Shown here: piece after piece, positions 17,600 to 62,210 of the stretch | Numbering within the stretch: position 1 is the stretch's first letter | Layout of the letters: each line of letters starts with the position of its first letter | DNA from: Deltaproteobacteria bacterium | Lineage (GTDB): Bacteria; Desulfobacterota; GWC2-55-46 | Length of the DNA stretch: 64,000 nt | Assembly: GCA_016218105.1 (NCBI GenBank) | Contig: JACRET010000005.1 | Location: 124,001 to 188,000 of the forward strand | Reading direction: 5' to 3' | The notes under the pieces: model-generated | What the model was told of the DNA's origin: nothing | Database searches by the model: none | What the model saw: only the letters and a program-made list of their open reading frames with translations | Position numbers and translations under genes: made by a program

Positions 17600-17985
17600 T
17601 TCCCGGCCCGTTCTTCGAGCGGGCCCTACATGAAAAGCCCCTCTCCCCATTTGGGGAGAGGCTGGGTGAGGGGGTTTAAATACGAGATTGCTTCGCTCTG
17701 CTCCCAATGGCTCTCATTTTTAGATTTTGTTCTTCAAAAAATACCGGGGTATTGCGGAGCGGAGCATAAAGGAGGCGAACGACCGGGCCTCAGTTCTATC
17801 GGAGGGAGAGAGCCGACAGCGAGCGGAGCCAATACCCCAGGAGCGCGCGGCAGCGCGCAAATAGGCCTTTTACCAAGAGGCTGGAATTTCACCCTCCCCT
17901 CAGTCCCCTCCCGTCAAGGGAGGGGACGTTTTGCTTGCCGCAGGGTTCCCTTATAGCTCACGGCCCGTTCTTCGAGCGGGCCCTC
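17600..17985. repeat. Composite intergenic repeat (family A, inverse orientation)
   Basis: cggcccgttcttcgagcgggccct flanks; core ggggtattg...caatacccc at 17746-17837; shares long identity with 980-1340, 25387-25700 and 41905-42222. Confidence 0.85.
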
Positions 17986-26624: not shown

Positions 26625-26802
26625 GTTTAATGGGCGGGCTCAGCCCGCTTATACACACTTTAAGCTAACTCTAAAAATTAGGAATTTTTTCTGAGGTCAA
26701 GGAAGTGCGGAAATAAAAAGCGGAGCATATAATGGTAATATGTGAGCATTTTTATTTTCGTCCTGACGCAGAGATCAGGAAAAATAGCAGTTTTTGTAGC
26801 CT

Positions 26803-57447: not shown

Positions 57448-57915
57448 TTATTCTGCGGCCGTCTTTTCCTTTAACCCTTTATACTCCATGAACGGCCCGA
57501 GAATTTTCACCTCATCCGTGACCTTGTTTATGAGGTCTACCCATTTTATGGCCTCGGATGCCGAGACCCATGAAAAATGGAGCCTCCGCATATCGATGCC
57601 GGCAAACTCCATCAGGTGCTTGAAACCTATCCAGCGGCGTCTGGCGTGGTAATTGCCCGTCGTGTAGTGGCAGTCGCCTGGGTGGCAGCCTGACACCAGA
57701 ACCCCGTCCGCCCCATTCTCAAACGCCTTTATTATGAACAGCGGGTCTATCCTGCCCGTGCAGGGGAGCTTTATGATACGGACGTTAGGCCTGTACTCCA
57801 TCCTGCTCGTGCCCGCGAGGTCCGCCCCGGCGTAAGTGCACCAGTTGCAGACAAACGCCATTATCTTGGGTTCGAATGAGCCCTGATTTTCGTTATGTTC
57901 AACGTGTCCTGACAT
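57448..57915 (-). CDS. MvhD/FlxD-like hydrogenase iron-sulfur (delta) subunit
   Basis: IMAFVCNWCTYAGADLAGTSRMEYRPNVRIIKLPCTGRIDPLFIIKAFENGADGVLVSGCHPGDCHY. Confidence 0.93.
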   Translation of the reverse strand: MSGHVEHNENQGSFEPKIMAFVCNWCTYAGADLAGTSRMEYRPNVRIIKLPCTGRIDPLFIIKAFENGADGVLVSGCHPGDCHYTTGNYHARRRWIGFKHLMEFAGIDMRRLHFSWVSASEAIKWVDLINKVTDEVKILGPFMEYKGLKEKTAAE

Positions 57916-57934
57916 ATCTATCCCGTTTCCTGAT

Positions 57935-59908
57935 TTAGAACGAATTTATGGCCGCGAACACCTGCTCGTCGGTATACCCGCGAAGGTCTATCGATTTGCT
58001 CCTGCACGCCGCGACGCATACGCCGCAGCCCTGGCATACGCCCTCGTTTACCCTCGCCAGCCACCTTACGATGTTGCCCTGCCTGTCCTTTACGTGGTCC
58101 CTCTCTATCGCAGAGTACGGGCACGCCGTGACGCAGTCCCAGCAGGCGTTGCAGGTCGCCTTGTTTACGACCGAAGTAATCGGCTCTCTCGCCATTTCAT
58201 CGGCCGAAAAAAGGGCCAATACCTTGCTTGCCGCCGCGGAGCCCTGCGCGACCGACTCCGGTATATCCATAGGGCCCATGCAGGTCCCGGCGAGGAATAT
58301 GCCTGCCGTTACCGTTTCAACCGGGCGTAGCTTCGGGTGGTACTCGTTATAGAACTTGTACTTGTCGTATCCGATGCCGAGCTTCTGCGCGAGCGTGTCC
58401 GCGCCTTCCCTCGATACTATCGCCGTGGCGAGAACGACCATGTCCGCTTCTATCTCGACCTGGCTTCCGCTTAAAGTGTCCGCGCCCTGGACTATCACCT
58501 TGCCGTCTTTCTCATATACCCTTGAAACGCGGCCCCTCAGGTACATCGCGTCGTCGTGCTCTATCGCCTTCCTTACGAACTCCTCATACCTCTTGCCGCC
58601 CGAGCGGATGTCCATGTAGAACACATACGACTGTCCGTCGTGAACCTTATGCTTATAGAGCATCGTGTGCTTGGCGGTATACATGCAGCATACCTTCGAG
58701 CAGTAGGATACCCCCTTTTTCTCATCCCTTGAGCCTACGCACTGTATAAAGACGACGTTCTTCGGCACCTTGTTGTCGGAGGGCCTTCTTATCTCGCCGC
58801 CTGTGGGGCCTGATGACGAAGCGAGCCTCTCGAACTGCATGCCGCTTATTACGTCCTTGATCCTGCCGTAGCCGTACTCGCCGAACCTCTCGTTAGGCAT
58901 CAGCTGATAGCCCGTGGCCACGACTATCGCGCCGACCTCTTCGGTCACGATCTTGTCCTGCATCGTAAAGTCTATGCACTTCGGGCCGCAGACTACGGCG
59001 CAGGCGCCGCACTTGTCCTTCTGTATCTTATGGCAGTTCGGCGCGTCTATCACGGGGACGTTAGGCACGGACTGAGGGAAGGGCGTATAGATGACCTTCC
59101 TCTTGGCAAGGCCCAGCTCGAAGTGGCTTTCGGTCTTGAACGGGCACTTCTCTATGCACTCGCCGCAGCCCGTGCAGCGGTCTTCATCCACATACTTCGA
59201 CTTTCTTCTTATCTGAACGGTGAAGTTCCCGATATACCCGTCTACCTTCTCGACCTCCGAGTAGGTATAGAGCTTTATGTTCTCGTTCAGTTCGGCCTCG
59301 ACCATCTTCGGCGTCAAAATGCACTGCGAGCAGTCCATGGTCGGGAAGGTCTCGGAAAGGCGCGCCATGTTGCCGCCGATCGAAGGCTCCTTCTCCACAA
59401 GTATTACTTCCCTTCCGCCTTCCGCTATGTCAAGGGCGGCCTGTATGCCTGCGATGCCGCCGCCGATCACGAGCGCTTTTTTCTTTACGGGTATCTTTAT
59501 CTTCTTCAGAGGCTTGTTCTTCTTGAGCCTCTCTATGGTCATCCTTGTAAGGTCGATGGATTTAACCGTTCCAACTGCCTTCGTCTTGTCGTGATGTACC
59601 CAGGAGCACTGCTCCCTTATGTTCGTCACCTCGCACTGGTACGGATTCAGGCCCGCGGCCTCCGCGGCCTTCCTGAAGGTCTTCTCGTGCATGTGCGGAG
59701 AGCAGGCCGATACGATTATGCCGTCAAGCTTATTGTCCTTGATGGCCTGCTTGAGCATGTCCTGCCCCGGGGATGAGCACATGAACTTATAGTCGCAGGT
59801 AAAGACCACCCCAGGGAGCTTACTCATCTCCTCGGCCACCTTTTTGGTGTCTACGGTAGCCGCTATGTTATTTCCGCACTGGCAGACAAAAACGCCTATC
59901 CTCGGCAT
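57935..59908 (-). CDS. hdrA: Heterodisulfide reductase-like subunit A
   Basis: IGVFVCQCGNNIAATVD, VIGGGIAGIQAALDIAEGGREVILVEKEPSIGGNMARLSETFPTMDCSQCILTPKM, ferredoxin motifs. Confidence 0.94.
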   Translation of the reverse strand: MPRIGVFVCQCGNNIAATVDTKKVAEEMSKLPGVVFTCDYKFMCSSPGQDMLKQAIKDNKLDGIIVSACSPHMHEKTFRKAAEAAGLNPYQCEVTNIREQCSWVHHDKTKAVGTVKSIDLTRMTIERLKKNKPLKKIKIPVKKKALVIGGGIAGIQAALDIAEGGREVILVEKEPSIGGNMARLSETFPTMDCSQCILTPKMVEAELNENIKLYTYSEVEKVDGYIGNFTVQIRRKSKYVDEDRCTGCGECIEKCPFKTESHFELGLAKRKVIYTPFPQSVPNVPVIDAPNCHKIQKDKCGACAVVCGPKCIDFTMQDKIVTEEVGAIVVATGYQLMPNERFGEYGYGRIKDVISGMQFERLASSSGPTGGEIRRPSDNKVPKNVVFIQCVGSRDEKKGVSYCSKVCCMYTAKHTMLYKHKVHDGQSYVFYMDIRSGGKRYEEFVRKAIEHDDAMYLRGRVSRVYEKDGKVIVQGADTLSGSQVEIEADMVVLATAIVSREGADTLAQKLGIGYDKYKFYNEYHPKLRPVETVTAGIFLAGTCMGPMDIPESVAQGSAAASKVLALFSADEMAREPITSVVNKATCNACWDCVTACPYSAIERDHVKDRQGNIVRWLARVNEGVCQGCGVCVAACRSKSIDLRGYTDEQVFAAINSF

Positions 59909-59950
59909 AAAGACCTCTTGGTTACCTTAAACAAAAATCCTTTTTCACAT

Positions 59951-59971
59951 CCCCTCCCTTGACGGGAGGGG
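59951..59971. repeat. Palindrome cccctccc-ttgac-gggagggg abutting the DUF559 gene 3' end
   Basis: Directly visible; same unit as in family A repeats. Confidence 0.8.
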
Positions 59972-59972
59972 A

Positions 59973-60323
59973 TTAAGGGGAGGGTGAATCCCTTACGGCT
60001 TCCCTAATCATCAACAGAATACCTTCTAAATTTTCGAACACATCGTTATTCCAAAAGCGTAAGACCCTGAAGCCGTTTTTTATAAAATGTCCGTCTCTTT
60101 TATTGTCTTTATTCTTTTCGATAGCATGCTGACCGCCGTCTACTTCTATAATCAACCTTTTATCGAAACAGACAAAGTCAGCTATATAATTGTCTATTGG
60201 TGTCTGTCTTCTGAATTTAAGTCCTTCTACCTGTTTAAGCCTAAGATGTTTCCAGAGCAGTTTTTCCGCTTCCGTAGGCCTTTTTCTAAGGGCCTTTGCG
60301 ATGGAGGTGATCTTGGCAGCCAC
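59973..60323 (-). CDS. DUF559-family (Vsr-like PD-(D/E)XK) endonuclease
   Basis: LRKRPTEAEKLLWKHLRLKQVEGLKFRRQTPIDNYIADFVCFDKRLIIEVDGGQH...RDGHFIKNGFRVLRFWNNDV. Confidence 0.93.
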   Translation of the reverse strand: MAAKITSIAKALRKRPTEAEKLLWKHLRLKQVEGLKFRRQTPIDNYIADFVCFDKRLIIEVDGGQHAIEKNKDNKRDGHFIKNGFRVLRFWNNDVFENLEGILLMIREAVRDSPSP

Positions 60324-60340
60324 TTTTCACCCCCACCCTG

Positions 60341-60361
60341 CCTCCCCCGTCAAGGGGGAGG
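60341..60361. repeat. Palindrome cctccccc-gtcaa-gggggagg abutting the DUF559 gene 5' side
   Basis: Directly visible. Confidence 0.8.
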
Positions 60362-60397
60362 AGCTTTAATTCACCTTTACTAGCAAAACTCCTATTA

Positions 60398-60796
60398 TTA
60401 CAGATTAATCCTTTTCAATGCGGCAGTCTTTTTCCAAATCTCTTCAATTATTTTTCCCACTCTCTTAAAATCACAAAACTCAATCTTATCGCTTTTAGCA
60501 CAATTACAAAGACTACAGGCCTTGACACAATTATTCCGGCTATAGCCTTCTGCATTATTTTTTCTATCAACTTCTAATCGTTTTCCTCTTCTTCCTCCAT
60601 AAAACTCTCCCCAAATCGGTATAAATTTACCGCCCGGAATATGACAGTAAAAACATTCATTATCCGCCTCTGTATACCAAGCTACGAAATCATCACTATC
60701 CCAATTAAATCTTGCTCTCAATATTCCTTTCTTATATTGTCTATTTGCTCTGCTTTTCAGGGAATTCCAAGCTTTTTTTGCTTCGGTCCTATTCAT
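60398..60796 (-). CDS. HNH-type endonuclease-like protein
   Basis: CFYCHIPGG ... RLEVDRKNNAEGYSRNNCVKACSLCNCAKSDK (CxxC ... LEVDR-N ... CxxCN pattern). Confidence 0.85.
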   Translation of the reverse strand: MNRTEAKKAWNSLKSRANRQYKKGILRARFNWDSDDFVAWYTEADNECFYCHIPGGKFIPIWGEFYGGRRGKRLEVDRKNNAEGYSRNNCVKACSLCNCAKSDKIEFCDFKRVGKIIEEIWKKTAALKRINL

Positions 60797-61668
60797 CAAA
60801 CTATCCCCTTCTTTTTAAGAAGCGGCATTATATCCGTTACGTTCTTCTCGAAACCCAGTGTCTCTATGGGCTGGCCGAGCGCCAACCCGAGCGCTTGCGT
60901 AAAATACACGACCGGGACCCCTGAAAAACCGGAGTTCTGACCGGCTACCTTACCCTGGCTCTTCTCAAGGTTATACTGGCAGAGCGGACAGCTCGTGATG
61001 ATAAGCTCCGCACCAGAGCCTACCGCGGACGTCATCACATTGCCGGAGAGCTTTGTGACGACCTCTTCATTATTCATGGCGAGGTGCGCCCCGCAGCATT
61101 CGATCTTGTTCGGAAAATCCACCGGCTCTCCGCCGATCGCCTTTATGAGGTCTTCGAAGATCGTCGGCTTCTCGGCGTTGTCTACGCCCATGTCCTCGAA
61201 AGGACGAAGGAGCATGCAGCCGTAGTAAGCCCCGGCCTTGATGCCTTTAAGCGGCCTCTTTACAGCCTCTTTTACCCTGGCAAAGCCGATCTTATCTCTC
61301 AAAACCTCGAGGTAATGGATGACGTTCAGGCTTCCGTCGTATTCTTCCTCTATGAAGCCGTTGATGGTAGACCTCTTCTCCCTGCTGTCCCTTATGACTT
61401 TATTGGTTCTCTTAAGGACGTTGTAGCAGACGGAGCAGAGCGTGGTGAGCGTGTCGCCCTCTTTGCTGGCGTTGGACAAGACCTTTGCCGGGGCAGAGAG
61501 GGCTATCAGATTATCGGGAGACAAGGGGAAAGTAGCGCCGCAGCAATTCCACTGGGCGAGTTCCTTCATCTCGAAGCCGATTGTGGCGGCGGCGTCCCTT
61601 GCCGATGAGTCGAAGGCCTTCGCGACTGTATTTAAGGTGCAACCGGGATAATAAGGTATCTTCATCAC
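60796..61668 (-). CDS. hdrB: Heterodisulfide reductase-like subunit B
   Basis: YYPGCTLNTVAKAFDSSA, NCCGATF, YYGCMLLRPFEDMG, IECCGAHL, CPLCQYNLE. Confidence 0.92.
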   Translation of the reverse strand: MMKIPYYPGCTLNTVAKAFDSSARDAAATIGFEMKELAQWNCCGATFPLSPDNLIALSAPAKVLSNASKEGDTLTTLCSVCYNVLKRTNKVIRDSREKRSTINGFIEEEYDGSLNVIHYLEVLRDKIGFARVKEAVKRPLKGIKAGAYYGCMLLRPFEDMGVDNAEKPTIFEDLIKAIGGEPVDFPNKIECCGAHLAMNNEEVVTKLSGNVMTSAVGSGAELIITSCPLCQYNLEKSQGKVAGQNSGFSGVPVVYFTQALGLALGQPIETLGFEKNVTDIMPLLKKKGIV

Positions 61669-61721: not shown

Positions 61722-62129
61722 TCAGCTTACGAACTTCCTGAAACCGCAAACAATCGCCTGCTGGGGCGCCTTCTGTAAAAACGGTATGGGTATTTCCTTT
61801 ATCTTTTCAAAATCCTCGCCTTTTCTAAGGGTCGTCTGCCTTAAGCCTTCGAGTATCGCGGCCACGCTGCAGCCCTTGGGGCAGCGCGAGTAGCACTGAA
61901 GGCATCCGACGCAGAGCCTCATCGAATTGGCTTTCATTACCTCTTCTATCCTGCCGAGCTGGAGAAATCTCATCACCTGGCTCGGCGCTATGTCCATCTC
62001 GAAGGAGACCGGGCACCCGCCTGAGCAGTTGCCACACTGATAGCACTTCTTTAAATCTTCTCCGCTGATCCTCTCAAGGTGCCGGATACGGACGCTATTT
62101 ATATCTTCTGAGGCGAGCTTTATCTTCAA
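61722..62129 (-). CDS. hdrC: Heterodisulfide reductase-like subunit C
   Basis: CYQCGNCSGGCPVSFEMDIAPSQVMRFLQLG; CVGCLQCYSRCPKG. Confidence 0.9.
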   Translation of the reverse strand: MKIKLASEDINSVRIRHLERISGEDLKKCYQCGNCSGGCPVSFEMDIAPSQVMRFLQLGRIEEVMKANSMRLCVGCLQCYSRCPKGCSVAAILEGLRQTTLRKGEDFEKIKEIPIPFLQKAPQQAIVCGFRKFVS

Positions 62130-62210
62130 TTCAAAGAGTCTCCCATATTTTAAACCACGATTGATCGGGATGGATCAAGGGTTAACAACCACAAAGCGCC
62201 CGATACGGGA

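Follow-up and report, generated by a model that had tools for sequence, protein, structure and literature searches.

A gene for a 116-amino-acid DUF559 nuclease, located between hdrB and hdrA in a Deltaproteobacteria bacterium (GTDB Desulfobacterota; GWC2-55-46), is bracketed by two inward-facing inverted palindromic repeats that were overlooked in the initial annotation. The gene and two repeats of the BoxC/triplex motif (TM) type probably constitute a REPtron-like mobile cassette of ~420 bp, in which a nuclease of the Vsr/I-Bth0305I type takes the place of the Y1 tyrosine transposase. It is very likely that the gene and its two TMs form one transmissible unit, and the nuclease is fairly likely to be what drives the spread of TMs. 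The nuclease family, the repeat family, and the REPtron layout were already known separately; the pairing of nuclease and TM, the range of bacteria that show it, and what it implies for two orphan repeat superfamilies did not turn up in the accessible literature. No link between DUF559 or GIY-YIG nucleases and palindromes or REPs was found in the accessible full-text literature, which mostly excludes subscription papers, and no mobility enzyme is credited to BoxC repeats in the accessible literature.

Insertions in the hdr operon

The window analyzed is a 64,000-nt stretch of contig JACRET010000005.1 (positions 124,001 to 188,000, forward strand) of assembly GCA_016218105.1, referred to here as G000. 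Six consecutive genes, hdrC, hdrB, HNH, DUF559, hdrA, and FlpD/MvhD, all lie on the minus strand, and the operon has the following features:

62130-62210, junction preceding hdrC, no nuclease gene present
61722-62129, minus strand, hdrC
60796-61668, minus strand, hdrB, upstream host gene, intact and present in relatives (PF02754, 1.1e-17)
60398-60796, minus strand, HNH gene, endonuclease VII-like (phrog_1035, 3.2e-13)
59973-60323, minus strand, DUF559 nuclease gene, 116 aa (PF04480, E 2.5e-38)
57935-59908, minus strand, hdrA, downstream host gene, intact
57916-57934, hdrA-FlpD junction, empty in the window
57448-57915, minus strand, FlpD/MvhD

The initial annotation had described two endonuclease genes, HNH and DUF559, within the hdr operon and in its orientation, with the HNH start codon directly after the hdrB stop. 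These readings hold: both genes lie between hdrB and hdrA, the HNH ATG and the hdrB stop share one base (TGATG), and the DUF559 call is certain, given the PF04480 match. The uninterrupted junction that it had proposed to look for in close relatives was found in the same-genus genomes G002, G003, and G004. The interruption is real, since the hdrB-hdrA junction measures 12 to 14 bp in these three congeners and 890 bp here, and an insertion common to all relatives, which would have spoken against it, is not what the empty congeneric junctions show. Its view of the two genes as mobile or homing-type cargo stands in part; the insertion, the empty sites, and the presence of two nucleases agree with it, but the genes are not one unit, and it is DUF559 that forms a repeat-bounded cassette. 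Classical allelic homing fits this cassette poorly because it does not predict dispersed repeat copies. No Rfam match was found at the locus.

HNH was acquired separately from the DUF559 cassette, to which it is unrelated, and is specific to this genome. It has no Pfam or NCBIfam match at 1e-3, matches a phage endonuclease VII family in PHROGs, was found in none of the 62 further genomes of its class (63 including its own), and shows no ends that belong to it. It may represent a second, unrelated insertion placed for translational coupling to hdrB. The homing endonuclease F-CphI is reported to employ an Endo VII catalytic motif (PMC6083498).

The DUF559 protein is a YcjD/Vsr-like nuclease of the PD-(D/E)XK-EDxHD type, with a PF04480 match of 130.7 bits against a curated cutoff of 20.6 and eight residues invariant in 93 homologues (E20, W24, D49, E60, D62, G63, H66, and R89). 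Its AlphaFold model (pLDDT 83) matched best in Foldseek to NGO0050 (3hrl) and the homing endonuclease I-Bth0305I (3r3p, E 3.3e-4), with a weaker match to Escherichia coli Vsr (1vsr). Among solved nucleases whose function is known, the nearest is I-Bth0305I, which shares the catalytic fold and was also matched by profile HMM (3.9e-5). However, I-Bth0305I is phage intron encoded and multidomain, and its target spans nearly 60 bp (PMC3943268), whereas the window protein consists of one 116-aa domain encoded between repeats. Vsr, E. coli YcjD, and Caulobacter VsrA share family or fold with the window protein, and the literature examined on them (e.g., PMC12907096) does not discuss mobility or flanking repeats, unlike what is seen for the cassette. 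The nuclease is under purifying selection, with dN/dS ratios of 0.07 to 0.40, the lowest of which rests on saturated dS. Selection and mobility thus coexist, since the gene is conserved in this way and yet occupies its sites patchily.

Terminal repeats and their association with DUF559 genes

The repeats at the two ends of the cassette, and a further region of the window carrying a copy of one of them, are as follows:

60330-60361, minus strand, left terminal repeat (TM), CCTCCCCC TTGAC GGGGGAGG CAG GGTGGGGG
59950-59984, plus strand, right terminal repeat (TM), inverted relative to the left TM, TCCCCTCCC TTGAC GGGAGGGGA TTA AGGGGAGGG
17601-17985, ~380-bp mosaic of several palindromes, including a right-TM copy (17905-17925)

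Each terminal TM combines a hairpin with a third strand of purines, which is placed inward of the hairpin and mirrors its purine arm; in the left TM this third strand points toward the DUF559 start. The left and right TMs scored 13 and 18, respectively, against a 99th percentile of 8 for random controls from the same locus. For the hairpin parts only, the computed folding energies were -9.4 kcal/mol on the left (as single-stranded DNA) and -11.2 kcal/mol on the right (z = -3.1). The C-terminal SPSP of the nuclease and its stop codon are encoded within the right TM, with the stop in its second loop. The order of pyrimidine arm, loop, purine arm, short loop, and mirror-image purine third strand is shared with the BoxC/PIT/TM repeats of E. 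coli (Holder et al. 2015, PMC4666352), for which triplex folding was demonstrated by CD and NMR (PMC4666352). Both are dispersed and multicopy; those of E. coli are intergenic, some in close inverted pairs of types A and B, and are known as orphan repeats, whereas in the window TMs mark the two ends of a nuclease gene.

The full motif of the right TM has about 43 matches in its own genome versus none for a reversed-pattern control. Many of these copies lie inside the ~380-bp mosaic repeat and are therefore not independent insertions. The right-end type is present in 110 copies in G002 (reversed control, 0 to 2), and no DUF559 gene with such ends was found in that genome, which indicates that TM copies can outlive, or be independent of, a present nuclease. 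Among the genomes compared, those with DUF559 more often carry window-type TMs (20/24 versus 15/35; Fisher p = 0.003, with phylogeny ignored). The mosaic repeat itself occurs at about 40 further places in G000 and is absent among the matches listed from four congeners. Another repeat of ~130 bp, at positions 26659 to 26795 of the window, has many copies of ~88 to 95% identity in four congeners, most of those listed being from G004.

In total, 103 DUF559 loci were scored for inward TMs (score of at least 12), comprising 27 from a family search of relatives plus the window's own genome and 76 from named genomes spanning Desulfobacterota-type bacteria, Nitrospirae, Nitrospinota, Actinomycetota, Omnitrophota, Chloroflexi, Proteobacteria, Verrucomicrobia, and others. 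Inward TMs were present upstream at 58 loci, downstream at 68, on both sides at 51, and on either side at 75, while outward TMs were found upstream at 2 and downstream at 11. None of 412 random positions had inward TMs, and 191 control ORFs of at least 200 aa in the same loci had TMs upstream in four cases, downstream in three, and on both sides in none. The 27 loci of the relatives-only set, which were not picked by similarity to the window protein, gave 11 upstream, 18 downstream, 10 on both sides, and 19 on either side. In a separate test, general upstream and downstream inverted repeats exceeded the control 99th percentile at 75 of the 103 loci. A recognizable TM is missing at about a quarter of the loci. 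The median element span is 416 bp, and the ORF enters the right TM at 56 of 68 loci and runs through it at 50. In addition, TM similarity tracks the identity of the nuclease proteins (Mantel r = 0.52, p < 0.0005; r = 0.49 after pairs above 85% identity were dropped).

Further DUF559 types were observed. A second type with CCTCCCCTTaacAAGGGGAGG-like ends is present at L002 (contig C96 of G000), L093 (G002), and L084 (G003), and at the last two it follows the same host gene sequence. A third copy (L003/L004) runs off the ends of G000 contigs C46 and C91 within the gene; one part has in-frame stops, and the copy may be a broken gene or an assembly fault.

Junction states in relatives and the manner of spread

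Among relatives whose hdrB locus also showed the hdrA start, the hdrB-hdrA junction is highly variable. A DUF559 cassette occupies it in G020. In G006, G010, G013, and G028 it contains GIY-YIG genes alongside GTCATTGCGAGG...GAAGCAATCTC palindromes, whereas G022 has a solo CCCTCCC repeat there and several other relatives have solo repeats of the CGTC type. The hdr operon is a recurrent acceptor, with two further junctions holding nuclease cassettes in relatives. At hdrA-FlpD, DUF559 cassettes with a CCCCCTTTtctaAAGGGGG-type end, a TM type unlike that of the window, occur in G002, G004, and G026, and solo TMs occur in G009, G013, and G020; upstream of hdrC, GIY-YIG genes occur in G002 and G003. 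Empty, solo-TM, and cassette states of the same junction were thus seen in sister lineages at two junctions. Operon-junction insertions may survive because so short a unit can be transcribed through. No clean case of target-site duplication was found at the E. coli or operon sites, where the empty sites are too diverged or rearranged. Other ORFs of unknown function, of 145 and 165 aa, occupy the hdrB-hdrA junction at L052 (G028) and L062 (G056), and the 3' end of the latter recurs as a remnant in G020 (L048).

The nuclease may spread TMs through DNA breakage at the repeats followed by host repair, a route put forward tentatively. The enzyme would recognize the structured TM, as a hairpin or triplex exposed in single-stranded DNA, and would nick or break DNA at TM copies, after which host recombination or replication repair could copy the cassette, or its ends alone, to new places. 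Solo TMs and close inverted TM pairs would then be non-autonomous derivatives of the cassette. Strand joining would not be expected of a nuclease of the DUF559 fold by itself.

A free-standing homing endonuclease that cuts solo TMs and is copied in by gene conversion, with TMs spreading by other means, is a less probable account. Occupied and empty alleles in close relatives recall homing endonuclease genes, and the fold is related to that of I-Bth0305I. Sister lineages have solo TMs of the same type at these junctions (G022 at hdrB-hdrA; G009, G013, and G020 at hdrA-FlpD), and in G026 the TM and the adjoining TTTCA are directly duplicated around the nuclease at hdrA-FlpD. However, homing in its classical form destroys its target, and the two full TMs kept by the cassettes speak against a disrupted TM target. 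Homing also leaves the spread of TMs unexplained, and TMs co-vary with the nuclease as the ends of an element should, though a target could co-vary too.

It is improbable that the TMs are simply recombinogenic and spread by replication slippage or foreign transposases, with DUF559 a Vsr-like repair nuclease lying between them, or that a repair nuclease gene uses them as regulatory or terminator hairpins. Such a repair role was proposed for Caulobacter VsrA, a DUF559-domain protein required for the SOS/DNA-damage response of scmA mutants (PMC12907096), TM sites in E. coli are rearranged more than controls (PMC4666352), and G002 is rich in TMs without a matching nuclease. Neither version would lead one to expect inward-only TMs on both sides, an ORF running into the right TM, or nuclease-TM co-variation, and other genes in the same loci are without brackets (0/191). 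A reading of HNH and DUF559 as unrelated cargo that lodged at a permissive junction, the repeats having gathered there by chance, accounts for the genome-specific HNH gene and accords with the many different inserts at hdrB-hdrA, but is very improbable for DUF559, for which it leaves the bracketing across phyla unexplained and is contradicted by the controls (0/412 positions; 0/191 ORFs on both sides).

The cassette reading is nearest to the REPtron, a RAYT transposase gene with GTAG REPs, in having one small gene between inverted palindromic repeats and many dispersed non-autonomous copies. Unlike a REPtron, the cassette has no GTAG tag, its enzyme fold is unrelated, and no Y1/HUH transposase was found in its genome (no PF01797 match, against positives in five control genomes).

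E. coli ycjD and two orphan repeat superfamilies

The E. coli gene ycjD is a DUF559 gene and belongs with the DUF559-TM cassettes. The entire fabI-ycjD-sapF stretch is present in 3363 of 5426 complete genomes, and in other lineages eefRABCD stands there instead (PMC12817139). In S1-CAM-04-C (NZ_CP145703), the ycjD ORF has an extra 12 nt and overlaps a full inward TM at its end; K-12 ycjD is without these 12 nt and hence without the TM third strand. The extra bases were considered as restoring the type B loop (CCG), which was rejected, since what is restored is a full inward TM with a second loop of TTG. No left TM was found at ycjD; a palindrome just upstream was rejected as the left terminus of the element, since strains lacking ycjD have a similar one after sapF.

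Five close inverted TM pairs are reported in K-12, each of type A plus type B (PMC4666352), and by the coordinates given there four of the five face inward, 16 to 27 bp apart. The gene at one DUF559 locus in Desulfobacterales (L165) is preceded by a type A TM and followed by a type B TM, so an A-plus-B pair is the expected leftover of a gene-deleted element. Three K-12 TM sites tested were all polymorphic among complete genomes, with no clean empty sites. The long alx-sstT junction, which differs by ~430 bp, was rejected as an E. coli cassette because its sequence is unrelated. No transposase or integrase remnants are reported around E. coli TMs (PMC4666352).

DUF559 is a first candidate enzyme for the spread of BoxC/TM repeats, which occur in more than 260 genomes (PMC4666352). 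The origin of TMs can be tested directly in E. coli K-12, which has ycjD and 23 TMs. If the cassette reading is true, the close inverted pairs in K-12 are always A plus B because they are the two ends of one element. The reading could also help to explain the instability of TM sites and would add a transposase-free route by which small genes enter operons.

A broader possibility, held with some reserve, is that two widespread bacterial palindromic-repeat superfamilies owe their mobility to single-domain nucleases of unrelated folds, DUF559 for BoxC/TM and GIY-YIG for CGTC repeats. These would make up a general class of nuclease-driven REPtrons in which repeats are copied through DNA breaks at structured ends, without transposase chemistry. 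Of 61 long-range structural variants in experimentally evolved Legionella, 44% linked two of the GIY-YIG and DUF559 hotspots (PMC12308824). CGTC-tagged REPs, present in many species and described as apparently without a dedicated transposase (Di Nocera et al. 2013, PMC3733652), occupy the same operon junctions in relatives and flank GIY-YIG genes there; both repeat and nuclease differ from those of the window cassette. The GIY-YIG nuclease is a candidate enzyme for these REPs. All 18 single-domain GIY-YIG genes tested (loci L198 to L214 and L219 in relatives; junction examples L043, L047, L050, and L052) have flanking inverted repeats that exceed the 99th percentile of controls, and many of these repeats are GTCATT tagged and of the CGTC type (GTCATTGCGAG..GAAGCAATCT, GTCATTCTGAG..GAAGAATCT, and CGTCATTCCCG..GGGAATCCAG).
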